Source of the DNA: a virus
Length of the DNA: 43,287 nucleotides
Reading direction: 5' to 3' (one strand)
Virus record (IMG/VR): IMGVR_UViG_3300049479_000135
Coordinates: 1-43,287 of that record
The notes below the pieces were generated by a model. That model had not been told where the DNA came from, did not search any database, and saw nothing but the letters and a program-made list of their open reading frames with translations. A program made the translations under genes and the position numbers. Positions 2,853 to 42,244 of this stretch are shown here, piece after piece (position 1 is the first letter of the stretch; each line of letters starts with the position of its first letter).

Positions 2853-3308
2853 ATGAGTACCGATATAACCACCACCGATGACGGTTCCTTGGCAGCTACG
2901 CCCAAGCGTGGAACGCTGACCGTAGAACGCGCACAGGCGCTCTTGGACCGTGTTCTCCAGCGCCGGATCCGCCTGGTGGACCGTTACAACGGCCTCAGCA
3001 TCCCCGGTGTGCGGGAACCCAATCCGCATCCCAAAGCCTGGGATGGCAAGGTCTGCCCCGGTGATCCGCCGGGTATCCAGATGATCTTCCACCTGGGCAA
3101 GATGCTCAAGGAAGCGGCTGACATCGAGGATCCCTACAACCGCATCAACGCGCAGGCGGGCATCACCAAGCAGTTGGCTGCGCTGTGCGACCGCTTTGAG
3201 GACCAGAACAGCAAGATCGTCAGCGAGGTCCAGAAGTTCATTGAGATGGAGCGGAACAAGGGCGAGTTGACCGATGACCAGTTGGCTGAGTTGGCCAAGC
3301 AGGCATGA
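2853..3308 (+). CDS. terS: Terminase small subunit (putative)
   Basis: This 151-aa protein overlaps the start of the large terminase by 4 nt, the usual terS position. AAAGG precedes ATG 2853 by about 5 nt. The sequence is mostly helical and charged, with a Gly/Pro-rich central part (about residues 48-75) and a C-terminal acidic helix. In the family, the small subunit forms a ring that recognises the packaging site and regulates the large subunit. I assign it on context, size and helical content, because no diagnostic motif is visible by eye. Confidence 0.7.
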   Translation: MSTDITTTDDGSLAATPKRGTLTVERAQALLDRVLQRRIRLVDRYNGLSIPGVREPNPHPKAWDGKVCPGDPPGIQMIFHLGKMLKEAADIEDPYNRINAQAGITKQLAALCDRFEDQNSKIVSEVQKFIEMERNKGELTDDQLAELAKQA

Positions 3309-4999
3309 GCAAGCAGATCACCCCGGCAGAGGCGAAGAAGATCCTTGAGGCTCGCAAGGCTGCCGACCCATGCCGGTACTTCCTTGAGCATGGAACGCCG
3401 ACCCAAAAACTCATCCTTGAGGACGCAACCACCTATCGTTTGGTGTCATCGGCCAACCAAGGCGGGAAAACAACGACGGCCATAGTAGAGTGTGCCAGTA
3501 TTCTGCGCGGTATCAACCCGTTTAAGCCTTGGTACGGCCCTGTCTCAGTGTGCATCTTCGTCCCCAGCCGTGCCCAAGCCGCTGGTATCTGGGGCGAACG
3601 CCTCCTATCCAAGTCAAATATCCGTGCCAGTGTCGAAATAGGTGGCAAATCTGTCTCGCTGGCTGATAAACCGCTGATCCCGGCGTCGGAAATCGAGCAT
3701 ATCGTCTGGGCGTACTCCCCGCAGGGCAAGTACCCCGGCATGATTGAGCTAAAAAACGGGTCTATCTGCCGTATCGCCCTGTCTGGCGACAAGAAGTCCT
3801 GGGAACGTGTGCAGGGCTTCACCTATGACGCCATCTACCGCGATGAAGCGGTCGGCAACGAGAACCTGGGTAGTGAATTGTTCCCCCGTTTGGCTGCTGC
3901 CCAGACGGCGGTGATGGAAGGATCGCGGAAGTGGGGCGGATTCATCCTCTGGGTGGCTACGGAAACGCTCGTCAACGATGAGTTCCGCAACTTCATGGCG
4001 CATTGCGAAGATGGATCGCCGGGATACAAGCTATTCCGCATCCCTCCTGAGGAGAACCCTGCTGTTTCCATGGAAGTGCGCCAGCGCATGCACGATGCGA
4101 TGTCCGAGACATCGGGCGACAGCATGGCTACGCTCCGCATGTTCGGCACCGGCTCTGCCGTGGACACGCTCAAGATATTCCCGCAGTTCTCCAGCAAGCG
4201 GCACATCACCGCCGACTATGAGCCTACAGAAGAGGACAATCTCTGGGTCGGCTGGGATCCCGGCATCAAAGACAACTTCGGCCTCATGTTCTGCTGCGTC
4301 CAACCCATGTACCCGACCACAGTACGGGTAATCGACTTCGCCCACCGGCCCAATACCACGCTGGACTACCAAGCGCAGGTCATCCACGACTGGCTGGAAG
4401 GGCGCACACTGGAGGCGCTTATCGTGGACCCATCGGCCAATAAGAAGGAGTACAGCCGTGGCAAGCCGGTCATCGAACTCTTCAAGGAAATCCTGTTTGG
4501 CCAGTTGAAAGTCAAGACCGAGCGTGGGGTCCTCATCGGACGCAACCGGCTGGAGGATACCGTACCCATTGTGCAGCGGTATCTGGACCCTGACCCGCAG
4601 GACAAGCAGGCTCGCCCGCTGCTCCTGTTCAATGAGCGTGCGCGGTATGCAGCCGACATGATCGCCGCCGCCCGCGTGAAGGCTGGCAGCAATAAGCTGG
4701 CGTTCAACACCATTGACGGGAAGCATCTGGAGGCGTTTGACCTCATCCGGTACATCCTGTCCCGTACCCCACATTACTGCCGCCGTCAGCCCAACGTCCG
4801 CACCTTCCAGACCTTGAAGGCCACGGCCATCCCCAAAGCGCCAACAGCGTCGTCCGACCCGTTTGCCATCACGCCGGACATGACGGAGGAAATGAAAGTG
4901 CATCGCATGCGCCTGCGTGAGTCCTGCCGGGTCATGGAATCCTTCGGGGCAGTAGGCAACGGGGGCAGATCCATGGCCACGCAGATGATGGATTGGTGA
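3305..4999 (+). CDS. terL: Terminase large subunit
   Basis: This 564-aa packaging ATPase-nuclease drives DNA into the prohead and cuts genome ends. The P-loop (SANQGGKTT, residues about 49-57) is followed by a Walker B-like strand (DAIYRDEA, about 173-180), where Asp-Glu would activate water. The C-terminal RNase H-like nuclease is marked by GWDPG (about 315-319) and by IVDPS (about 371-375). Length and domain order fit tailed-phage terminases. The ATG overlaps terS by 4 nt. The next gene is a fibre rather than the portal, which is unusual. Confidence 0.92.
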   Translation: MSKQITPAEAKKILEARKAADPCRYFLEHGTPTQKLILEDATTYRLVSSANQGGKTTTAIVECASILRGINPFKPWYGPVSVCIFVPSRAQAAGIWGERLLSKSNIRASVEIGGKSVSLADKPLIPASEIEHIVWAYSPQGKYPGMIELKNGSICRIALSGDKKSWERVQGFTYDAIYRDEAVGNENLGSELFPRLAAAQTAVMEGSRKWGGFILWVATETLVNDEFRNFMAHCEDGSPGYKLFRIPPEENPAVSMEVRQRMHDAMSETSGDSMATLRMFGTGSAVDTLKIFPQFSSKRHITADYEPTEEDNLWVGWDPGIKDNFGLMFCCVQPMYPTTVRVIDFAHRPNTTLDYQAQVIHDWLEGRTLEALIVDPSANKKEYSRGKPVIELFKEILFGQLKVKTERGVLIGRNRLEDTVPIVQRYLDPDPQDKQARPLLLFNERARYAADMIAAARVKAGSNKLAFNTIDGKHLEAFDLIRYILSRTPHYCRRQPNVRTFQTLKATAIPKAPTASSDPFAITPDMTEEMKVHRMRLRESCRVMESFGAVGNGGRSMATQMMDW

Positions 5000-8603: not shown

Positions 8604-9073
8604 GCCTTGACCTTCCCAAGTTCATCCGCGCCGAGGCGGAACGTGCCGAGATGTTCGCTAAGCTGGTGGAGCGGGCCGACGAGTTGGGCCGTTGGGAGCA
8701 GACGCTGGCCGATGCCGCCAAGCGTGTGGATGCGCTGAAGAAGCAGGCTGAAGCCGCCGAGAAGGCGATTGCTGCCGCCGATGAGAAGGCGACGGCGATT
8801 CTGGTCGCTGCCAAGTCCGAGGCTGCTGGCATTGCCACTGGTGCCAAGTCGCTGGTGAGCGATGCGCAGGCCGAGGCTGCCAAGATCCGCGAATCCGCCG
8901 TTGAGGCTGCTAGGGTTGCCAAGGCCAAGGAGAACGCCGCCGAGGCGGCCGAGAAGAAGGCGCTTGACGGCATCAAGAGTGCCGAGGGCAAGCTCGCCGC
9001 CGTGACCAAGACGCTGGCTGATGCCGAAGCTGTTATCGCAAAGGCCGCTGCTATCCGCGCTGCAATGGGCTGA
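8600..9073 (+). CDS. Ala-rich coiled-coil protein (157 aa)
   Basis: Nearly the whole protein is a long helix of Ala, Glu and Lys heptads with no Pro after residue 6, so an extended coiled coil is expected. The ATGA overlap couples it to the preceding structural gene, and a large tail protein follows 7 nt later. It may be a fibre shaft, chaperone or assembly scaffold. Low sequence complexity prevents family assignment. Confidence 0.65.
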   Translation: MSLDLPKFIRAEAERAEMFAKLVERADELGRWEQTLADAAKRVDALKKQAEAAEKAIAAADEKATAILVAAKSEAAGIATGAKSLVSDAQAEAAKIRESAVEAARVAKAKENAAEAAEKKALDGIKSAEGKLAAVTKTLADAEAVIAKAAAIRAAMG

Positions 9074-9079
9074 TCCCCT

Positions 9080-11704
9080 ATGGGCTGGTCTGCCATCGCA
9101 TCGTCGCGCACTACACAATCGGGCAGCTACCAGTCGCAGGTGGCTACCGCCGTCAACACGGCAGTTGATGTTGACACCGGGTATATCGACGCCGCCCTGA
9201 ATTGGTCAACCGTATTCGACGGGCAGGCGTTCGCTATTATCCGCGCCAGTGCTGTCATCGCAGTGCGCTGCATCAAGTCGGTCAGCACCACGCGCCTGAC
9301 CTATTACCGGCTCTACCGCGACGACGACACCGAGCTTGCCACCGACGTGCAGGTGGGCGACACGATCACGCTTTACGAAGCGCCCGAAATCGTCGGCGCA
9401 GGATCGGCGCTGTCGGCCGTGTCGGGGATCACGCTGACCGCTACCGGAGCAGGCGAACAACTGTTCCGCCGGTACGCGATCGGTGACAACGCCTGTGCAA
9501 TCACGGGCTTTTTTCAGATCCCCAGCAAGCATCTGCTGGAATTCGGCGCGGCGGCACCAGGGCAGACCATGCGCATTGACGCTGGCGGCCGTCTCGCTGT
9601 GGGCTGGTATCGTACACGCAGCGGCGTATCGGTGTTCTGTGCCGACCTCTTGGTGCGCGGCACCAAACAGGAAGTTCAGGCGTACCTTATTGGCAACAGC
9701 ATGTTCAATCCGAACACGGCAACCTCGCGCCTGGATTGGTTCGGCGGCATCGAGGAATCCGGATCGCTCTGTTACTGCGACGTTGCCGGTGCCACGGCCC
9801 GCATTTACTCCAAAGCTGCCCGGACGCGCGGGCTCGGGCTTTCCACGGACGCGCTTACCGAGCAGTTCCAGATTCGCTTTTCGTCTTCCGACGCCATCTC
9901 CTACGGTTTCACCAGCGAGAACAGGACCATCGTCCTCGTCGGAAATCCGTCGATTGGCGGATATGCGCCGCGCCAACAGGGGCTCGCTTTCTCCTTCAGC
10001 AGCTCCACCCCACCGAACACTTGGATTACCATTCCAAACCCAGCTTTGCGTGCAGGTAACATTGTAGACGTAGCATTCTGGTCCTCTAAGTGGGGCCGGA
10101 TCATCAACAACGAAACAGGCTCCAATGTTACGGTCGGCGGAAATCAGATCACATCGGCCACCGGCAATCGTGGACTGCATGAATATCGCGCAGAGGTTAC
10201 GGCCAACATCCGCAATACTGCCGGCACCGGACTCGCAGGGCGCATATTCTGCCGAGATCGCAATAACGGCAGTCGGTTGTCCGCAAACCAAATCGGCAGC
10301 AATCCAGACTATGCTGCTGACAGGACATACGAATCCGCGTTGTCCGCTGGCGCGGCCAGCTTTACCACGGACGGCGGCGTGCTGCTGGCATGCGCATACC
10401 AAAACGTGGCCGCATTAGGCGTCGATAGGTTTAGCGCCATCACCTGGGACTATCGTGGGTTAGATAACTCCAGTACGGACCGTTTCACGTTCGGGCTTGC
10501 TTCCTACGGCTATGATCCGGCTGCAACAACCGCTGTCCTCAAGGGCATCGGTGGCGTAGCCGTGGCGTACACCATGCTGGCAGACTCCGGCGTTACGGCC
10601 TCAAGCACGACGGCCGCCACGTATACCGACCGTTTCAGCATTAGCGGCGCCGGCCACATCACCGTCACGGCAAACGCGACCCTCGACCAACTGTACGACT
10701 ACGCGCAAATCTGGCTGCAATCCAGCGGTGCGAACATGGAGGTTGCCGGGCTTGGCGCAAAGCTGATAGCCTATTCAGGCAGCGCACTCAGTCTGACGAA
10801 GAATGTCACTGTCAACGTCGGCGCAACGCTATCTAGCGGGGCGAAATACAGCACGATCAGCACGACTGGCACAATCACGGTCAACGGCGCTATGGCGGTC
10901 ACCGCATACACGGATGTTAGCGGGACTCAGGCTGGCATCGTGATCACCGGCCTCGAAGCTGGATCGCGCATCCAAGTGTACAACGTGACGGACTCCGTCG
11001 AGTTGATCAACTCTGTGGTCCCTGGTTCCATGTTCACCGGGTACGTCGCGTATTCCTCGGATAAATCCATCCGCCTCCGCGCCACCTACTGTTCAGGAGT
11101 GACCGCAAAAGACGAATACCAAGCCACGGGCACGCTGACTTCCTCCGGTGCTGCGTTTACTGTGTCGCAGGTTGATGACGTTATCTACAACACCGCGGCG
11201 ATTGACGGCAGCACCGTCACCGAGTTTGCTAGCGACTATCCGAACGTGCAGGTTGATGTTACCGACCCGGATGGCGTCACGACCGTCCAGCGTTTGCATG
11301 CCTGGTGGATGTACAACCTCACGACGGCTAGCGGAATTGCCAACTTCTTCGGCGGCCTGATCGCTGACGACGCAGTCAACTTCAGGATTGTGACATCCAT
11401 CATCAACCTGAAGCTGGATAACCAGAACGCAGCCCCGGTTGTCTTTGCTGGTGGTCGCCTGTACCACGACGAGGGAACGACGGTCATCGCCGCTACATCG
11501 GGTTCTATCCAGATGGATCCTGACCGCGTGTATCAGTCGGTTGCGGCGGAAGCCGACCTTGCCGCTATCCGCGACCTTGTGGAAGCGGACGAGATCCACA
11601 CAGGCACGACCATCCAGAAGCGACTCCGTGGGACCGCAACCCCATTGCTGACTAAGAACTGGACTGGCAGACCGCTACTCGACTTCCAGGCGATTCAGCC
11701 GTGA
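9080..11704 (+). CDS. Large tail/receptor-binding protein (874 aa)
   Basis: This is a long beta-rich protein of Gly, Thr, Ser and Ala repeats. A central part (about 500-640) has a regular strand-turn pattern like a beta-helix. A C-terminal part contains QMDPDRVYQS and ends near residue 874. Size and composition suit a tail fibre or spike. I see no clear hydrolase triad, so enzymatic depolymerase activity is not supported. The stop codon overlaps a 34-codon micro-ORF through GTGA. Confidence 0.75.
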   Translation: MGWSAIASSRTTQSGSYQSQVATAVNTAVDVDTGYIDAALNWSTVFDGQAFAIIRASAVIAVRCIKSVSTTRLTYYRLYRDDDTELATDVQVGDTITLYEAPEIVGAGSALSAVSGITLTATGAGEQLFRRYAIGDNACAITGFFQIPSKHLLEFGAAAPGQTMRIDAGGRLAVGWYRTRSGVSVFCADLLVRGTKQEVQAYLIGNSMFNPNTATSRLDWFGGIEESGSLCYCDVAGATARIYSKAARTRGLGLSTDALTEQFQIRFSSSDAISYGFTSENRTIVLVGNPSIGGYAPRQQGLAFSFSSSTPPNTWITIPNPALRAGNIVDVAFWSSKWGRIINNETGSNVTVGGNQITSATGNRGLHEYRAEVTANIRNTAGTGLAGRIFCRDRNNGSRLSANQIGSNPDYAADRTYESALSAGAASFTTDGGVLLACAYQNVAALGVDRFSAITWDYRGLDNSSTDRFTFGLASYGYDPAATTAVLKGIGGVAVAYTMLADSGVTASSTTAATYTDRFSISGAGHITVTANATLDQLYDYAQIWLQSSGANMEVAGLGAKLIAYSGSALSLTKNVTVNVGATLSSGAKYSTISTTGTITVNGAMAVTAYTDVSGTQAGIVITGLEAGSRIQVYNVTDSVELINSVVPGSMFTGYVAYSSDKSIRLRATYCSGVTAKDEYQATGTLTSSGAAFTVSQVDDVIYNTAAIDGSTVTEFASDYPNVQVDVTDPDGVTTVQRLHAWWMYNLTTASGIANFFGGLIADDAVNFRIVTSIINLKLDNQNAAPVVFAGGRLYHDEGTTVIAATSGSIQMDPDRVYQSVAAEADLAAIRDLVEADEIHTGTTIQKRLRGTATPLLTKNWTGRPLLDFQAIQP

Positions 11705-11805
11705 TCTGGGCCATAGGCACGCCGGGGGTCTGGTATATGAGTGAGATATACGGCGGATCAGCCGGTGGCCTTGTGACTTTCTATATACGTCGGCGTCGGC
11801 GCTAG
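11701..11805 (+). CDS. Micro-ORF, membrane-like with Arg tail (34 aa)
   Basis: GTG at 11701 overlaps the TGA of the large tail gene (GTGA), and the frame ends with TAG at 11803-11805. The peptide is hydrophobic with Trp, Gly and Ile, and ends in five Arg after FYI, a membrane-anchor pattern with a positive cytoplasmic end. It occupies most of the 144-nt gap before portal. It could be a small holin or fibre-linked membrane peptide. Expression is unproven. Confidence 0.45.
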   Translation: MIWAIGTPGVWYMSEIYGGSAGGLVTFYIRRRRR

Positions 11806-11848
11806 AATACCCTTGCGAGTCCTTCAAAAACCATAGGATGTCACCGAT

Positions 11849-35431: not shown

Positions 35432-37315
35432 CTAACCATGAAAAAGATCCTCGGTGTCACTCGGCTGAGAGCGCAGCTTGGCGGCGCGGTTGGAGGGTGG
35501 CGGCGGCATGTGCTGATCGTCCTGCTGTTCGTCCTTCTGCTTCTTAGGCATGATGACACCGGCCTCTTTCATCGTGCAGTTGCCCTCAAACGTCATAGCA
35601 ATCGACATCTTGTTGCCCTTCCCATACCTGCACTTCAGAATATGGACAACCCTGTCGGCCATGACCGTGGTGCCGTCGATCAAGGTGTGTTGCTTAGGAT
35701 TCATCTGCGAGAGCCACAGCGCCGTGTGGCAGAAGCGAGTCCATGCGTTTCCGCCAGCCATCCCGGTTAGCGATGGCTCCTTGGCTGTTCCGCGCGGGTG
35801 GGTGGTTACGATCACGCTCATCTTGTACTTCTTGGCAATCGACTTCAGGCGCATGGACAACTCAAAGTCCTGTAGCCACGGCTCCCGGCCCTGCTTGACG
35901 GCAGTGATGGGGTCGATCATCACCACGCGGCAACCAGCCTTAGCCTTACGCTCCACCCAGGCGATGATGTCCTTATGGGACGGAAGATCATCGTCATCCT
36001 CGGCAGTGATGAGAGCGCCAAGTTTGTCAATCTCATCTCGATGGTTACGCATGTCCTCATCAACAACCATCTGGTTCGCCATTACCCACTTGTCGCATCC
36101 GTGGTTGTTGCCGGTTAGCTGCGTCAGCAGGCGGGCAAGGTGCATCCGGATGTCGTCTTCCATCATGCGGACGGCAGCCTTATGCCCAGCCTTGTTCCAG
36201 AACTGCATGCACTGGAGCATGAACCACGACTTGCCCGCGCCGGGATCAGCGCACAAGATGGTCACAGCCCCCGGCATCATCGCTCTGGTGAGAGCGCCCA
36301 GGTTCGCGTGGGGCATATCCAAGGTTTGCCACTTGCCGGCGATGACTTCAGCTTGCCATGCCGCTAGGGTGTCCGCATAGCTGCCGAACTGCGCATCGCC
36401 AATGAATGTCTTGACGGCATCAATCTCATCGGCACTTGGGTTCTTACCCCACTTCTCCCACAGGTCGGCAATGTCGCCGCCTTCGGGCATGCACATCAGC
36501 GACGGGTCAAGCCTACCGACCCTAGCCCCAAGCTCGGCTAGTATCTTGGTCACGGTATCGGCATACTCGGTTCCGACCGTATCGTTGTCGGGCCAGATGA
36601 CGACCCGCTTGTCGGCCAGCGATGACCAATCGGACGACTCGGCGTTCTTCCCGCCCATGGCGGAAGTCACAGCCGGTATGCCCATAGCCCATGCCGCATC
36701 GCACGCCTTCTCACCCTCCACGACCAGCACGGTGTCCACACCGGCCACCTCATGGGATCGGTACAGGGGGATGGACCCCCTCGGGATCAGGTTCTTAGCC
36801 GTATAGGTGCCGTCGGGGTGGCAGGTGAACTGCCGGAACTGCTTCTTGGCCCCGCCATGGGGCATCAACCTGACGATCAGCAGGACCGGGGCATCGGGAG
36901 GGCCGTACTTGTACCACGCCTGGGGAACCCCTGCCCGCTTCACCATGTCCACCACCGCCTGCTTGCCCTTCAAGTCACCCGTCGAAGGCACGCCAGGATC
37001 GACGCTAGGGCCTGTTTCCGCCTCAACGGCAGACTTTTCCTTCTTCGAGGGGAAATTAGACCTTGCCATGACTTTGGCTTCCTTGAACTCGTTTCGTCCG
37101 GTGATGCTACTACGGATATCGTAGACATCCCCGGTGCGGTCACACCTGTGGCAGTGGAGACGCCAGTGTCCATCCTGACCCTGTAGGATGCTGGCCGACG
37201 GGGTTGAGTCGTCGTGCCATGGGCATGTGCTGGACTTCCCCTTCACGGTGCAGCCGGCGTCCGTGAGCGCACGGAAGAACGCCACCTCGTCATGGGCCTC
37301 GGAGTTGTCGATCAC
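35432..37315 (-). CDS. Bifunctional primase-helicase
   Basis: This 627-aa protein combines three parts. A zinc finger has C31, H34, C55 and C58. A Toprim-type primase domain contains VVEGEKACDAAW and VIWPDND (about 195-265). A RecA/DnaB-type helicase has a P-loop DPGAGKS (about 353-359), RMMEDD and MIDP (Walker B). It resembles T7 gp4-like enzymes that unwind DNA and lay down primers. GTG 37315 gives a GTGA overlap with the loader gene. The C-terminus has an acidic Gln/Pro linker. Confidence 0.9.
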   Translation of the reverse strand: MIDNSEAHDEVAFFRALTDAGCTVKGKSSTCPWHDDSTPSASILQGQDGHWRLHCHRCDRTGDVYDIRSSITGRNEFKEAKVMARSNFPSKKEKSAVEAETGPSVDPGVPSTGDLKGKQAVVDMVKRAGVPQAWYKYGPPDAPVLLIVRLMPHGGAKKQFRQFTCHPDGTYTAKNLIPRGSIPLYRSHEVAGVDTVLVVEGEKACDAAWAMGIPAVTSAMGGKNAESSDWSSLADKRVVIWPDNDTVGTEYADTVTKILAELGARVGRLDPSLMCMPEGGDIADLWEKWGKNPSADEIDAVKTFIGDAQFGSYADTLAAWQAEVIAGKWQTLDMPHANLGALTRAMMPGAVTILCADPGAGKSWFMLQCMQFWNKAGHKAAVRMMEDDIRMHLARLLTQLTGNNHGCDKWVMANQMVVDEDMRNHRDEIDKLGALITAEDDDDLPSHKDIIAWVERKAKAGCRVVMIDPITAVKQGREPWLQDFELSMRLKSIAKKYKMSVIVTTHPRGTAKEPSLTGMAGGNAWTRFCHTALWLSQMNPKQHTLIDGTTVMADRVVHILKCRYGKGNKMSIAMTFEGNCTMKEAGVIMPKKQKDEQQDDQHMPPPPSNRAAKLRSQPSDTEDLFHG

Positions 37316-38010
37316 GGTGACACTTTCAGACGCTCTTCCCGCTCGGCCATAGCTTCCTTCCAAATGTCGTACGCCTGCTCAGGGCTAGGACCACCGTCGT
37401 CCCATGCTGGCTCGGCAGTCCCTACCGGCTTGGTCGGCCTAGCTTGGGACTGCGTGTAGCTGCGTTTGACCCATGTGCGCACGGCAGCTTGCCAGGACTT
37501 CATGGGCGAGTTGCCAACCTTCCACCCCTTGGATTCATAGAAGTCCACAAACGCATCTGGGTCGATAGCATGCCCATGCTCGTCGCAGTAGTCCCGAACC
37601 TCATTCACACTCGGGGCAGTGAAGCGGGGAGCGACAGCGACCTGTCTTTCTTTTTTGGTTTCTGGATTCTGGTTAGTAGTTGTTGGTTGTTGGTTGTTGG
37701 TTGGCTGGGTCTCATGCTGAGCATCCGCTGAGCATGACGTCAGCATATGCTGAGCATGTGCTTGCTTGACCTGCGCCTGTCTAGCCTTGCCTCCAGCCGC
37801 CTTGGTGGCTCGGAATGCCTCGGCCTCACCATGACACGCCAGGCCAAACTCAGCGCCCATCAAACGAGGTCCGTCCCACCCATCAGGGATTTTCCCACGG
37901 CTCCCGGCTCGGAATCCCGCCAGCCACTCAGCGTGCTGGTCTGGACGCAGGGTATCTAGCTCGGCACAGAGGTCATCAAGGTTAATCTTAACCCAATAGC
38001 TGCGACTCAC
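37312..38010 (-). CDS. Replication initiator / helicase-loader-like protein (232 aa)
   Basis: The gene lies directly upstream of the primase-helicase (GTGA overlap). Its C-terminal domain (about 128-190) has VNEVRDYCDEHG and NSPMKSWQAAVRTWVKR, a pattern typical of phage DnaD/DnaT-like replisome organisers and helicase loaders. A low-complexity linker (about 85-120) is encoded by repeats of 7 and 11 bp that are out of phase with codons, so this segment may double as the origin. The start is GTG 38010. Confidence 0.75.
   Translation of the reverse strand: MSRSYWVKINLDDLCAELDTLRPDQHAEWLAGFRAGSRGKIPDGWDGPRLMGAEFGLACHGEAEAFRATKAAGGKARQAQVKQAHAQHMLTSCSADAQHETQPTNNQQPTTTNQNPETKKERQVAVAPRFTAPSVNEVRDYCDEHGHAIDPDAFVDFYESKGWKVGNSPMKSWQAAVRTWVKRSYTQSQARPTKPVGTAEPAWDDGGPSPEQAYDIWKEAMAEREERLKVSP
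37679..37757. other. Putative replication origin with 11-bp iterons
   Basis: Four contiguous 11-bp units occupy 37714-37757: ATGCTGAGCAT, CCGCTGAGCAT, GACGTCAGCAT and ATGCTGAGCAT. Next to them GTTGTTG is repeated three times in tandem (37679-37699), beside a T-rich segment (37647-37680). Neither period is a multiple of three, so the repeats are not protein repeats. An initiator gene containing its own iterons and an easily melted tract parallels the lambda O/ori arrangement. Confidence 0.65.
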
Positions 38011-38296: not shown

Positions 38297-38431
38297 CCTC
38301 ACACCATGTCGCTCGGGCTGCTGCAATGCCCCATGGTAGAGAGGTTCCCAAGAAGCTGGTTCTTGGTGGACTCGTCAGATGTTGTCGCAGCACCACCGCA
38401 GGGGGCGAACCCTGTTTGTCGGCGTGGTCCT

Positions 38432-38459
38432 ATCCTACGCCTCATTCCCAATCCGTCAA
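38432..38459 (-). promoter_or_regulatory. Putative promoter of replication module
   Basis: On the minus strand TTGACG (38459-38454), a 16-nt spacer and TAGGAT (38437-38432) form a good sigma70-like promoter. It directs transcription into the gene at 38255 and the replication genes, with a leader of about 170 nt. The palindromic operator at 38508-38531 lies about 50 bp upstream. Confidence 0.55.
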
Positions 38460-38537: not shown

Positions 38538-38951
38538 TCAGGCCGGCGTGGTGTTATCCTGACCCTGCCCGCCCGTATCGCCCTGTTCTGATGCTGCTAC
38601 GGGCGGTAATCCGGCGTTGGATGCTCGCTCCTGTGCGCGATCCAGGCGCTCGATCTCGGCAACGATCAAGGCGGCGGCGCGGATCAGGTCGCGGCGGCGA
38701 TCCTTGGGCTTGTACCCATCGACGGCCCAGGGCCATCGCTTGGGAATCCAGGTGCCTGTGACGGTGGTTTTTCGCCCGTCATCTTTTGCGACCCGAATTA
38801 TTTCCGGCGCAGGATCGGCATAACAGGCTGCGGCCTGGGCCAATTCGCCGCCACAATGATCGTCGTCGTGATCCACGGTCCATCCCTCGGCTGTCTTCTG
38901 TCGCCAACGCTCTAGGCTGACTTCGGAAAGGATTGCTGATGGATCACTCAT
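38538..38951 (-). CDS. Conserved phage protein in cassette 1 (137 aa)
   Basis: The body has LSEVSLERWRQKTAEGW, HDDDHCGGELAQAA and a C-terminal DRRRDLIRAAALIVAEIE, patterns I recall from an uncharacterised protein common in proteobacterial phages. ATG 38951 overlaps the preceding stop (ATGA). The last 34 residues, from SNAG onward, lie beyond the cassette crossover at 38616/38617 and are encoded by flanking DNA. Function is unknown. Confidence 0.75.
   Translation of the reverse strand: MSDPSAILSEVSLERWRQKTAEGWTVDHDDDHCGGELAQAAACYADPAPEIIRVAKDDGRKTTVTGTWIPKRWPWAVDGYKPKDRRRDLIRAAALIVAEIERLDRAQERASNAGLPPVAASEQGDTGGQGQDNTTPA
38601..38622 (+). repeat. attC-like right half-site A
   Basis: GTTGGAT (38616-38622) fits GTTRRRY and is preceded by TCCGGC and a right-arm-like segment, as in sites B-E. 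No matching RYYYAAC left half is visible upstream. It marks the start of cassette 1: the left core box of site B, ATCCAAC, is its exact complement. Confidence 0.65.
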
Positions 38952-39358
38952 GGCTTCGCTTCCTTTGAAATAGTCGCATCCAACAAGTCGTTAGACTCGG
39001 AGCCGGCGACGATGGGTTTCTGTGCTTGGCCGGCGTCACTTGCGCCGGCCCGGTCAACTCTGGCGTTGGGCCAAGACAGATGGCCCGTCTCGGGATCTTG
39101 GATGGCGCTGTCGATGTCTCGCTCTTCCCATGTAACAAGGCCAAACGATCCACCGAAGTGGCGCATCTCATGGTCATTGGTGTCCTGCGCCATCTCGTAG
39201 TGGTGCTGTAAGCACCTGTCACATATTGCCGCCCATGCGCCGTGGTTGAAATTGGTAAACATAATCCCTTTAATTGCAGCCTCTCCGCAATTACAAACCG
39301 GCCCAACAAGGTGATGAACGGGAGCCGGGCCATGGTTGGTTTCGTTGTTCGGGGTCAT
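38948..39358 (-). CDS. Cassette 2 zinc-knuckle protein fused to attC-encoded ends (136 aa)
   Basis: ATG 39358 lies inside site C and overlaps the stop of the cassette 3 gene (ATGA). The first 20 residues (with APVHHLVG) are encoded by the left arm of site C. The core has CNC and CDRC, a probable zinc site, and HFGGSFGLVTW. The tail from PNAR (about residue 97) is encoded by site B and beyond. An alternative start is the internal ATG of MFTNFNHG. Function is unknown. Confidence 0.7.
   Translation of the reverse strand: MTPNNETNHGPAPVHHLVGPVCNCGEAAIKGIMFTNFNHGAWAAICDRCLQHHYEMAQDTNDHEMRHFGGSFGLVTWEERDIDSAIQDPETGHLSWPNARVDRAGASDAGQAQKPIVAGSESNDLLDATISKEAKP
38978..39071 (+). repeat. attC site B
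   Basis: The core boxes are ATCCAAC (38978-38984) and GTTGGGC (39065-39071). The left arm is GTT, extrahelical A (38993), GAC, T, CGG, extrahelical A (39001), GCCGGCG. It pairs with CGCCGGC, CCG, GTC and AAC (39043-39058). CAACAAGTCGTT and AACTCTGGCGTT closely match the ends of classical 59-base elements. Confidence 0.88.
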
Positions 39359-39388
39359 TTGCCGGCCCCGTTATCTTCGGCGTTGGGC
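39301..39388 (+). repeat. attC site C
   Basis: The core boxes are GCCCAAC (39301-39307) and GTTGGGC (39382-39388). The left arm is GAT, extrahelical G (39316), AACGGG, extrahelical A (39323), GCCGG. It pairs with CCGGC, CCCGTT and ATC (39362-39375). The left core box is complementary to the right box of site B. The loop holds the ATGA junction at 39358. Confidence 0.88.
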
Positions 39389-39603
39389 AGACAGCCGTCC
39401 GTGGTGCCACCGTTGAACCGCACAGGATCAGCCCCGCGCTTAGACGCCCATCCTGCCCAGCGGCCAGGATCGACGCATGCAGGGCATGCACGGTCTATGT
39501 ACTCAGGATCATAGATGCCAGGCATCCGCCTCTCATACCCGCACGTCGGGCAGCGCAGCACGGTGACCTTGATGACTTCCATTTTAATTTCGAGATCAGA
39601 CAT
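39355..39603 (-). CDS. Cassette 3 zinc-ribbon protein (82 aa)
   Basis: ATG 39603 overlaps the end of a 26-aa leader ORF (ATGTCTGA). Two knuckles, CPTC (about 18-21) and CPAC (about 40-43), form a zinc ribbon. PNAED and the last residues come from the right arm of site C, and the stop overlaps the next start (ATGA). Small zinc ribbons often bind nucleic acid or protein partners. The specific role is unknown. Confidence 0.75.
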   Translation of the reverse strand: MSDLEIKMEVIKVTVLRCPTCGYERRMPGIYDPEYIDRACPACVDPGRWAGWASKRGADPVRFNGGTTDGCLPNAEDNGAGK

Positions 39604-39676
39604 GACAGTTCTCTGTTCCAGTCTGCCCAACAAGTTGATGCACCGGAGCCGATGCCGTGACGTTTTTAGTGTTCAT
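39596..39676 (-). CDS. attC-encoded leader ORF in site D (26 aa)
   Basis: ATG 39676 lies in the loop of site D, overlapping the end of the cassette 4 gene. The frame reads through the left arm (APVHQLVG) and stops at TGA 39598-39596, overlapping the ATG of the cassette 3 gene. It has the same length as the leader in site E. Translation through it would open the attC hairpin and couple the two cassette genes. Confidence 0.55.
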   Translation of the reverse strand: MNTKNVTASAPVHQLVGQTGTENCHV

Positions 39677-39720
39677 GGAGTTCTTTCTGGGCATCGGCCC
39701 GGTGATCGTTGGCGTTAGAT
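39625..39720 (+). repeat. attC site D
   Basis: The core boxes are GCCCAAC (39625-39631) and GTTAGAT (39714-39720). The left arm is GAT, extrahelical G (39640), CACCGG, extrahelical A (39647), GCCGATGCC. It pairs exactly with GGCATCGGC, CCGGTG and ATC (39690-39707). This is the clearest structure of the array. Confidence 0.92.
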
Positions 39721-39890
39721 TCCTTGGCGTAGTACTGCGCCAGGAACACATCGACATGACTATTCGTGGTGGTTGGCGCGAATTTAGCCTTACCTTCCCG
39801 CAAGTATGAAACAGCCTCGGCAAGTTGCTCCTTCAATTCGTCGCGTTCGCGGATAAGATCCAGGCAATCTTGGCAGATATTGGGGTTCAT
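39666..39890 (-). CDS. Cassette 4 coiled-coil protein (74 aa)
   Basis: ATG 39890 overlaps the stop of the leader in site E (ATGA), and GGAG lies about 9 nt upstream. A CQDC motif (6-9) precedes a charged coiled coil (about 10-35). The tail from SNAN is encoded by the right arm of site D. Function is unknown. Confidence 0.7.
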   Translation of the reverse strand: MNPNICQDCLDLIRERDELKEQLAEAVSYLREGKAKFAPTTTNSHVDVFLAQYYAKESNANDHRADAQKELHEH

Positions 39891-39967
39891 GGTTTATTTC
39901 TCCGGTTGATCGTTCGGAATCGAACAAGTCGCTGGACTTGACCGGGCGACGACTGGTTATCGTTCAT
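39887..39967 (-). CDS. attC-encoded leader ORF in site E (26 aa)
   Basis: ATG 39967 overlaps the stop of the cassette 5 gene (ATGA). TGA 39889-39887 overlaps the start of the cassette 4 gene (ATGA). The peptide is basic with an RLVRF core from the left arm of site E. Length and arrangement match the leader in site D, although the peptide sequences differ, suggesting that the translation itself, not the product, is selected. Confidence 0.55.
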   Translation of the reverse strand: MNDNQSSPGQVQRLVRFRTINRRNKP

Positions 39968-40009
39968 TCTGTGTCCTTTCCGCCCGGCAAGTCAGCTTGG
40001 GCGTTAGCC
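39919..40009 (+). repeat. attC site E
   Basis: The core boxes are ATCGAAC (39919-39925) and GTTAGCC (40003-40009), each with one departure from consensus. The left arm is GCT, extrahelical G (39934), GACTTG, extrahelical A (39941), CCGGGCG. It pairs exactly with CGCCCGG, CAAGTC and AGC (39981-39996). Confidence 0.88.
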
Positions 40010-40275
40010 TGATCGTCTCTCGTAATGCGGAACGTCATCAAAGGCATATCCCCGCACATGGGGGTGATGTCGCCTTTCCCGTCTGGTGTAAACTCAATGA
40101 ACGGGCACATGTCGGACGGGCGGGCTAATTCCGGCGCATTCTCGACACAGGATGCAGCCGCCCGCAGCAGATGCAGGCTAACCATGCACCCGCGAATATC
40201 CCGCATGCACTCATCCCAATGCTCGGGCGGAATGTCCAGTAAGTCGGTGATGTGTGAAATACGATAGGTTTTCAT
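39964..40275 (-). CDS. Cassette 5 hypothetical protein (103 aa)
   Basis: ATG 40275 begins the core. The frame is open upstream to GTG 40317, which overlaps the previous stop (GTGA) and would add 14 residues encoded by half-site F. The protein is alpha/beta with four Cys (23, 30, 43, 57), C73 and an acidic middle. The tail from ANAQ is encoded by the right arm of site E. No family is recognised. Confidence 0.7.
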   Translation of the reverse strand: MKTYRISHITDLLDIPPEHWDECMRDIRGCMVSLHLLRAAASCVENAPELARPSDMCPFIEFTPDGKGDITPMCGDMPLMTFRITRDDQANAQADLPGGKDTE

Positions 40276-40289
40276 GGTGTGCTTTTCGT

Positions 40290-40312
40290 GGCTAACAACC
40301 CGCTGCCCCCCG
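40290..40312 (+). repeat. attC-like left half-site F
   Basis: GGCTAAC (40290-40296) is the exact complement of the right core box of site E, as expected for the cassette 5 attC. GCT, G and a run of C follow in the same positions as the arms of other sites. No paired right half with GTTRRRY is visible, so this end of the array seems truncated. Confidence 0.6.
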
Positions 40313-41449: not shown

Positions 41450-41609
41450 CCTGCGCCTTGCGTGTGTGGTATACAGACTGCTGATAACACGACATCGAAC
41501 AGAAGGCGGCAGGCTCCCCGCTCGGACGCTTAACACGGTGCGAGCGGCCACACCCCTGGCATATCGAGGGCGGCATCTTGGCACGCACACGACGGCAAAT
41601 GTCGTTCAT
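41433..41609 (-). CDS. Zinc-finger protein (58 aa)
   Basis: ATG 41609 forms an ATGA overlap with the methyltransferase-like gene. The motif CQGCGRSH, followed about 15 residues later by CSMSC, gives a four-Cys zinc site with a basic C-terminal helix. This is a typical small phage DNA- or RNA-binding protein by appearance. Confidence 0.65.
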   Translation of the reverse strand: MNDICRRVRAKMPPSICQGCGRSHRVKRPSGEPAAFCSMSCYQQSVYHTRKAQDAKAH

Positions 41610-42244
41610 AGCCGGCCCCACTGCGAAGCCATGGCGTCCGCAATGCCTTGGTAGGTCTTAGACCGCAGTTTCCAACGATCCTTGGACGGCGGCATATGGT
41701 GGATGCGATGGCGCTTGGCAACGGGGAGTGCCAGCATATCGGCCTTGACATCATGGGTCGGCACAAGCGGCTTCAGCCAGCCCAACCAGAGGCATGTAGC
41801 CTTTGTCTCAGGGTGGCCGAACATCCACGGTTGGATGATCTGGTCGGGCTTACGGTACAGGCGCGACATGATGCCGATAGGGTTTTCAATGGCCCACTTC
41901 TTTGCGTGTTTCTGGCAGCACTCCAGAATAGCCAAGAACAAGTCGATACCTTCTTGTTGTCTCCCATCGGCTCGCTTCGCCGCGAAGTGTCGCGCCCCGC
42001 TGGACGCAAGATGCGTGCAAGGGGGGTGGGCGATGACGAGATCCCACTCAGCCTGGTTTATAGGGATCATATCGCGCCCATCGTTGGCAATCATGTTGGC
42101 GATGACGTATCGTGCATCCCCGACCACATGATATGGGCTATTATCGTCGGCGGGCAACAGGTCGCATGACCATGCATTGTGTCCCAGCTTGCGGAATGCC
42201 TCTCGCACGGTTCCGCTGGATTCACAGGCAACGAGAACGTTCAT
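41606..42244 (-). CDS. DNA cytosine methyltransferase-like protein (212 aa)
   Basis: The N-terminus has a Rossmann-like VACESSGTVREAF. PPCTHLA (74-80) holds the catalytic Cys motif of C5-methyltransferases, and ENP (120-122) matches motif VI. At 212 residues it is short and lacks a clear target-recognition domain. Such proteins are widespread in phages and may methylate phage DNA against restriction or have diverged in function. ATG 42244 overlaps the preceding stop. Confidence 0.75.
   Translation of the reverse strand: MNVLVACESSGTVREAFRKLGHNAWSCDLLPADDNSPYHVVGDARYVIANMIANDGRDMIPINQAEWDLVIAHPPCTHLASSGARHFAAKRADGRQQEGIDLFLAILECCQKHAKKWAIENPIGIMSRLYRKPDQIIQPWMFGHPETKATCLWLGWLKPLVPTHDVKADMLALPVAKRHRIHHMPPSKDRWKLRSKTYQGIADAMASQWGRL

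Follow-up and report, generated by a model that had tools for sequence, protein, structure and literature searches.

Genes inverted and frame-locked relative to integron attC sites in a phage operon: a probable cluster of cassettes without its own integrase

The window analysed here, i.e. the whole 43,287-nucleotide stretch of the virus record IMGVR_UViG_3300049479_000135, very likely contains a cluster of genuine inverted integron cassettes that is placed within a phage operon and has no integrase of its own. Both the inversion of the genes relative to attC and their locking into one reading frame are read directly from the window (Table 1), and its membership in a wider class of inverted-cassette phage integrons is well supported. 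It is important to note that the new part is the reversal of the genes relative to attC and not the presence of attC itself.

Table 1. Features of the array and its surroundings (window positions), with the bacterial integron that has the same attC type in the last line; L numbers are our own handles
Feature	Position	Strand	Remarks
Primase/helicase	35432..37363	-	PHROG 239, E 1.6e-44; downstream of array, same strand
ORF1	38538..38951	-	137 aa; PHROG 6628/9763, E 1e-30; C-terminus crosses decayed site
Probable decayed attC (right half-site)	38540..38625	+	GGCGTTGGAT end, inner hairpin, no recognisable left end; direct reading
ORF2	38948..39262	-	ATG 39262, SD-like AAAGGGA; reads through whole attC A (WPNARVDRAG...)
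attC site A	38978..39071	+ (top strand)	crossover G|TT 39065|39066; class-1 model 39.4 bits, E 1.6e-8; broader model 52.8 bits
attC site B	39301..39388	+	crossover 39382|39383; class-1 model 29.6 bits, E 8.6e-6; broader model 59.7 bits
ORF3	39355..39603	-	82 aa, Cys-rich; ends within attC B (CLPNAEDNGAGK, then stop)
attC site C	39625..39720	+	crossover 39714|39715; class-1 model 31.4 bits, E 2.8e-6; broader model 57.3 bits
ORF4	39666..39890	-	74 aa; ends within attC C (ESNANDHRADAQKELHEH, then stop)
attC site D	39919..40009	+	crossover 40003|40004; class-1 model 37.7 bits, E 4.8e-8; broader model 53.5 bits
ORF5	39964..40275	-	103 aa, ATG 40275; ends within attC D (QANAQADLPGGKDTE, then stop)
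Weak left-end remnant GGCTAACAACCC	40286..40297	+	array edge, upstream in sense; direct reading only
DNA methyltransferase	41606..42244	-	PHROG 757, E 2.9e-68; upstream of array, same strand
Planctomycetota sedentary chromosomal integron	BJHQ01000008; L152, L187, L202		own integrase

Sites A–D are, with near certainty, integron attC sites. The four complete sites that an earlier note on this DNA had proposed are present with the fold it described. The ends RYYYAACAA (left) and GGCGTTRRRY (right) are exact in A–C; the boxes of site D are ATCGAAC and GTTAGCC, one letter off in each. Each of the four folds in the same order: an arm of 3 bp, a single extrahelical base, an arm of 6 bp, an extrahelical A, and then the inner stem. 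As read on the + strand, each is an imperfect palindrome whose 5' arm holds the extrahelical bases, 6 bp apart. The extrahelical A is at position 24 in site A due to an extra T in its 6-bp arm, and at position 23 in the other three sites; the earlier note had assigned position 24 to site B. Because of the same extra T, site A was missed by a strict structural scan, in which B, C and D scored 34, 42.5 and 32 as compared to a maximum of 23.5 in 20 dinucleotide-shuffled windows (866 kb). This strict motif and a covariance model replaced a first loose hairpin scan, which was unspecific. The covariance model (class-1 model) was made from ten attC sites of class 1 integron resistance cassettes on annotated plasmids, aligned after their variable loops had been removed. 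When both strands of the 43-kb window were searched at E≤10, it matched sites A–D alone, all on the + strand. Thus, the proposed attC identity holds with a model of our own that was trained on class 1 integrons, with four significant matches at E values from 2e-8 to 9e-6. With the filters switched off the matches were shortened (long loops), and the default-filter result was used instead. An Rfam scan of the window gave no attC family, only a tRNA and a chance match below the gathering score, and a plasmid search returned nothing similar to the array.

All array genes are read from the - strand, against the + polarity of attC, a point absent from the earlier note. That note had pictured ordinary cassettes; instead, the genes are inverted relative to the top strand of attC and have their stops in or beyond the next site, which is not the canonical cassette layout. 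The inverted layout is found at four of four sites. ORF1–ORF5 keep one frame across the crossover, YYY|AAC|GCC, read as Pro/Ser/Ala-Asn-Ala in all five. On the strand of the array genes the crossover separates the second A of RYYYAAC from its C, which corresponds to the established G|TTRRRY cleavage point (PMC9892861). The crossover splits RYYYAA|C and therefore the tail of each protein comes from the attC of the neighbouring unit. Moreover, the stop codon of ORF2 overlaps the start codon of ORF1 (ATGA). ORF1 belongs to a phage family without known function, and ORF2–ORF5 likewise have no known function.

Two half-sites had also been reported at the edges of the array. The right one is plausible as a decayed attC, since ORF1 continues through it in the frame used at the other sites and passes its end at about 38613–38622 as SNA. 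The left one is weak, and neither of them scores with the class-1 model in the window at E≤10. Just downstream of the array in the sense direction there is a short direct repeat, CGGCGTGGTCCTATCCT / CGGCGTGGTGTTATCCT, at 38420–38436 and 38544–38560, 124 bp apart.

The location of the array in the replication/early operon of the phage, as described in the earlier note, is borne out by the primase/helicase and DNA methyltransferase genes that flank it on the array strand. The absence of an integrase stands as well: a search of the record with PF00589 and TIGR02249 found no tyrosine or integron integrase. Having four attC sites within 1.03 kb but lacking an integron integrase, the array is a CALIN; it is not a complete integron, as there is no intI in the record, which may be incomplete. 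With the primase as a query for relatives, the one record recovered was a fragment of the same virus (L002), which is the only near-identical record and stops short of the array. Recombination may occur in the window phage itself, although there is no integrase and the search brought up no close relative whose array differs. A methyltransferase 78% identical to that of the window is encoded in L006 (5528–6172), which is without attC. The structural-gene half of the window carries a tRNA-Asn (GTT) gene at 2522–2593.

The same layout recurs in other virus contigs. IMG/VR was scanned with patterns of this attC type itself, and the first virus survey is for this reason not a random sample. A broader covariance model, based on 22 sites of phage, planctomycete and class-1 origin, marked 48 sites in 18 virus records; 47 of the 48 are opposite to the local genes (17 of 18 records), the gene strands in most of the contigs being calls of our own simple gene caller. 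Where a long open stretch crosses the site, the frame is YYY|AAC|GCC (frame 0) in 31 of 41 virus sites, with a binomial p of 4e-8 that treats sites of one record as independent, which they are not. Frame 2 accounts for most of the remaining sites, and at several of these the R-box TAA is the stop codon. When bacterial arrays are read on their antisense strand, the three frames occur 12, 7 and 13 times (frame 0 in 12 of 32). ATGA overlaps are common at the gene junctions that carry sites. The phage arrays lie near differing replication and packaging genes (terminase, DnaB helicase, DNA polymerase, helicase, exonuclease) and therefore do not come from one phage lineage. A single weak site within a long gene (L098/L117, G010) is likely a false match.

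As the record lacks an integrase, the array could be a relic that an integrase assembled in the past, with the repeats now inert and kept for the protein tails and translational coupling that they provide. The decayed sites at the edges and the extra base in the arm of site A would agree with this. However, the four complete sites retain intact boxes, extrahelical bases and paired arms, and cassette genes turn up again next to different partners in other virus contigs. We therefore regard a mere relic as unlikely, though it is an explanation to be taken seriously, and the array of the window could be inactive now.

The attC type of the window is also used by bacteria. A scan of bacterial genome contigs found a very large Planctomycetota array with it, in which genes are co-directional with attC in 12 of 12 cases in L202 and 11 of 11 in L152. 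A phage site (L114, 47–139) and a site of this integron (L202, 1186–1277) have identical conserved arms save one R-box base; their loops differ. Nine of the ten Planctomycetota integrases that score above the cut-off and have callable neighbours show the usual divergent arrangement. One Planctomycetota integrase (L296) has upstream genes on its own strand and possibly belongs to a prophage integron. The earlier note's picture was that of an ordinary integrase-less attC cluster which derives from a bacterial integron and holds standard cassettes. The sites are indeed true attCs, phage clusters have been published (PMC9892861), and TJE1, which is among them, has its genes on the attC strand. In the window, however, every gene is opposite to attC and one frame runs through the crossovers, whereas the bacterial arrays of the same attC type are co-directional, so that standard cassettes are quite improbable here.

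Inverted cassettes, the reading that we prefer, are found in virus contigs next to an integron integrase. In L094 (IMGVR_UViG_3300048837_001106) an integrase matching TIGR02249 with 408.7 bits (cut-off 265) adjoins at least four inverted sites at 8834–11843, and the gene stops are the R-box TAA. When virus contigs were scanned with an integrase alignment, at least 523 relatives came up, and 80 of these were retrieved. Upstream genes are on the strand of the integrase in 54 of the 55 virus intI loci where such genes could be called, as compared to 1 of 10 in Planctomycetota (Fisher p 3e-9), and attC is opposite to the genes at 67 of 74 sites in integrase-bearing virus contigs. Genes adjoining the virus integrases include terminase, portal, a ParB-like protein and a serine integrase. 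The inverted layout is not universal, as is seen from L247 (7126–8827), a virus contig with an integron integrase where attC and genes share a strand. The class-1 integrase itself is present in L252 and L253, and L285 clusters with Vibrio; these three are probably bacterial cargo or contamination, and some of the integrase-bearing virus contigs may be misassigned. In a quick integrase tree the virus sequences do not form one clade and fall into several clusters mixed with bacterial sequences, the latter mostly from Planctomycetota. The lack of an integron integrase in the window would also be expected if its attC-like sites were served by some other recombinase. This is very improbable, because virus contigs of the same layout have TIGR02249 integrases beside the array, scoring up to 408.7 bits, and the geometry of intI and attC in them is as in bacteria.

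In close pairs of integrase-bearing virus contigs, blocks have been exchanged at the predicted crossovers. L236 and L238 come from different metagenomes and have an identical intI and about 4 kb of common flank; their arrays, upstream of intI, differ. The array blocks are 90–100% identical, 8 of 9 internal block ends lie at most 4 nt from predicted crossovers, and one gene end is joined to different attCs. Assembly error is unlikely for these joins because the attCs beyond the join differ. Similar breaks occur in L286/L289 and L265/L268, and a gene end of L238 is found again in L286 beside another attC. Covariation was measured over 22 sites from phages and bacteria: 91.4% of the pair cells are paired, vs at most 43.4% when slid. 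There are 71 double changes and almost no G-U pairs, as expected if selection acts on a DNA hairpin and not on RNA. That the sites are mRNA hairpins for translation coupling or transcript processing and merely resemble attC is scarcely credible: they do lie at gene junctions with common ATGA overlaps and ribosomes would read through them, but the model of resistance-cassette attCs matches them, G-U is almost missing from the covarying cells, relatives break at the crossover and the same sites serve a bacterial integron in the opposite orientation.

Regarding traffic between phages and bacteria, the attI end of the planctomycete integron (L187, with a TIGR02249 integrase of 350.6 bits) has two phage-style inverted cassettes adjoining attI at 2963–3700. 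They have Shine-Dalgarno sequences, and their coupled small frames cross attC as well as the junction at attI. The simplest reading, which is not proven, is that phage-type cassettes were captured by a bacterial integron.

The cargo of inverted arrays was studied in a set of 108 proteins encoded near intI or inverted attCs, which is wider than proven cassettes and includes two proteins from L187. Matches in this set include N6/N4 and Dam methyltransferases, Mom, Lar, and the Tad2-like and Acb2/Tad1-hairpin families; examples of Lar, Mom, Dam and N6/N4 were confirmed individually, and the Tad2-like and Acb2/Tad1 matches stand at the level of the set. In L115 (8274–8753), a protein with Lar and DUF551 lies between two inverted attCs and is fused through one of them, which makes it a candidate restriction-alleviation gene. 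The cargo likely consists of accessory early genes, and in relatives of the window several cargo genes belong to counter-defence families.

From the layout the following mechanism can be proposed. Along the direction of transcription, a unit consists of attC, ribosome-binding site and gene. The last bases of the gene, RYYYAA, abut the crossover and the attC of the next unit starts with C, thereby supplying the C-terminal tail and usually the stop codon too. An integron integrase acting in trans, from a host integron or a co-infecting phage, may cut the folded bottom strand of attC, which is the sense strand here, and the cut unit may then be joined to another attC or to attI. With the common frame and ATGA coupling, any unit could be inserted into the operon and be translated, and the inversion would put the cassettes, in relatives also intI, on one transcript. 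For the window's own array we infer such mobilisation. Taken together, we think it probable that phages have an integron system of their own, with inverted cassettes that are frame-fixed or flush, an integrase on the same strand, counter-defence cargo, and exchange among phages and occasionally with bacteria, and that the window is an integrase-less member of it which can be mobilised in trans.

If this is true, integron recombination is not solely a bacterial device that phages sometimes acquire, and a reversed, operon-compatible integron is common in virus contigs, many of which have the integrase. Phages would gain a site-specific way of swapping small early genes, including those for counter-defence. 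It would also account for where some inverted cassettes of bacterial integrons come from, and cassettes would have a directly testable path between phage and host. Annotation that assumes a common strand for gene and attC can misread phage arrays.

The earlier note knew of no described standard arrangement in which a lytic-type phage carries such cassettes and no integrase, but 17 integrase-less attC clusters in phages, including those of virulent phages, were published in 2023, and IntI1 recombined five of the six phage attC sites tested (Qi et al. 2023, PMC9892861). The phage CALINs (TJE1, P12002L, Pseudoalteromonas PH101/H101, MW202573) are like the window in being attC clusters without an integrase. 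The part of that paper cited here does not describe gene inversion relative to attC or frame-locked read-through. According to the depositors' annotation, MW202573 (attC -, genes +) and Pseudoalteromonas H101 (attC +, genes -, with weak attC matches) are inverted, and TJE1 is canonical with genes and attC on one strand. A search of the literature on phage and viral integrons and on inverted cassettes, with most subscription journals and preprints outside its scope, found neither a description of this layout nor a name for it. Class 1 integron cassettes (aadA, cmlA, VIM and others) have the attC geometry in common with the window, namely a 5-nt spacer, 3 bp, an extrahelical base, 6 bp, an extrahelical A and a 6-nt right spacer; unlike in the window, gene and attC share a strand with the gene first, there is no read-through and there is no phage operon. 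The Planctomycetota integron has the attC type of the window, but its genes are co-directional with attC, except for the two attI-proximal cassettes, which are inverted, and it has its own integrase. L094, L225, L236, L245, L258 and others differ from the window in carrying intI beside the array; like the window, they have attC inverted relative to the genes and small cassettes, with read-through or the R-box TAA as stop codon.
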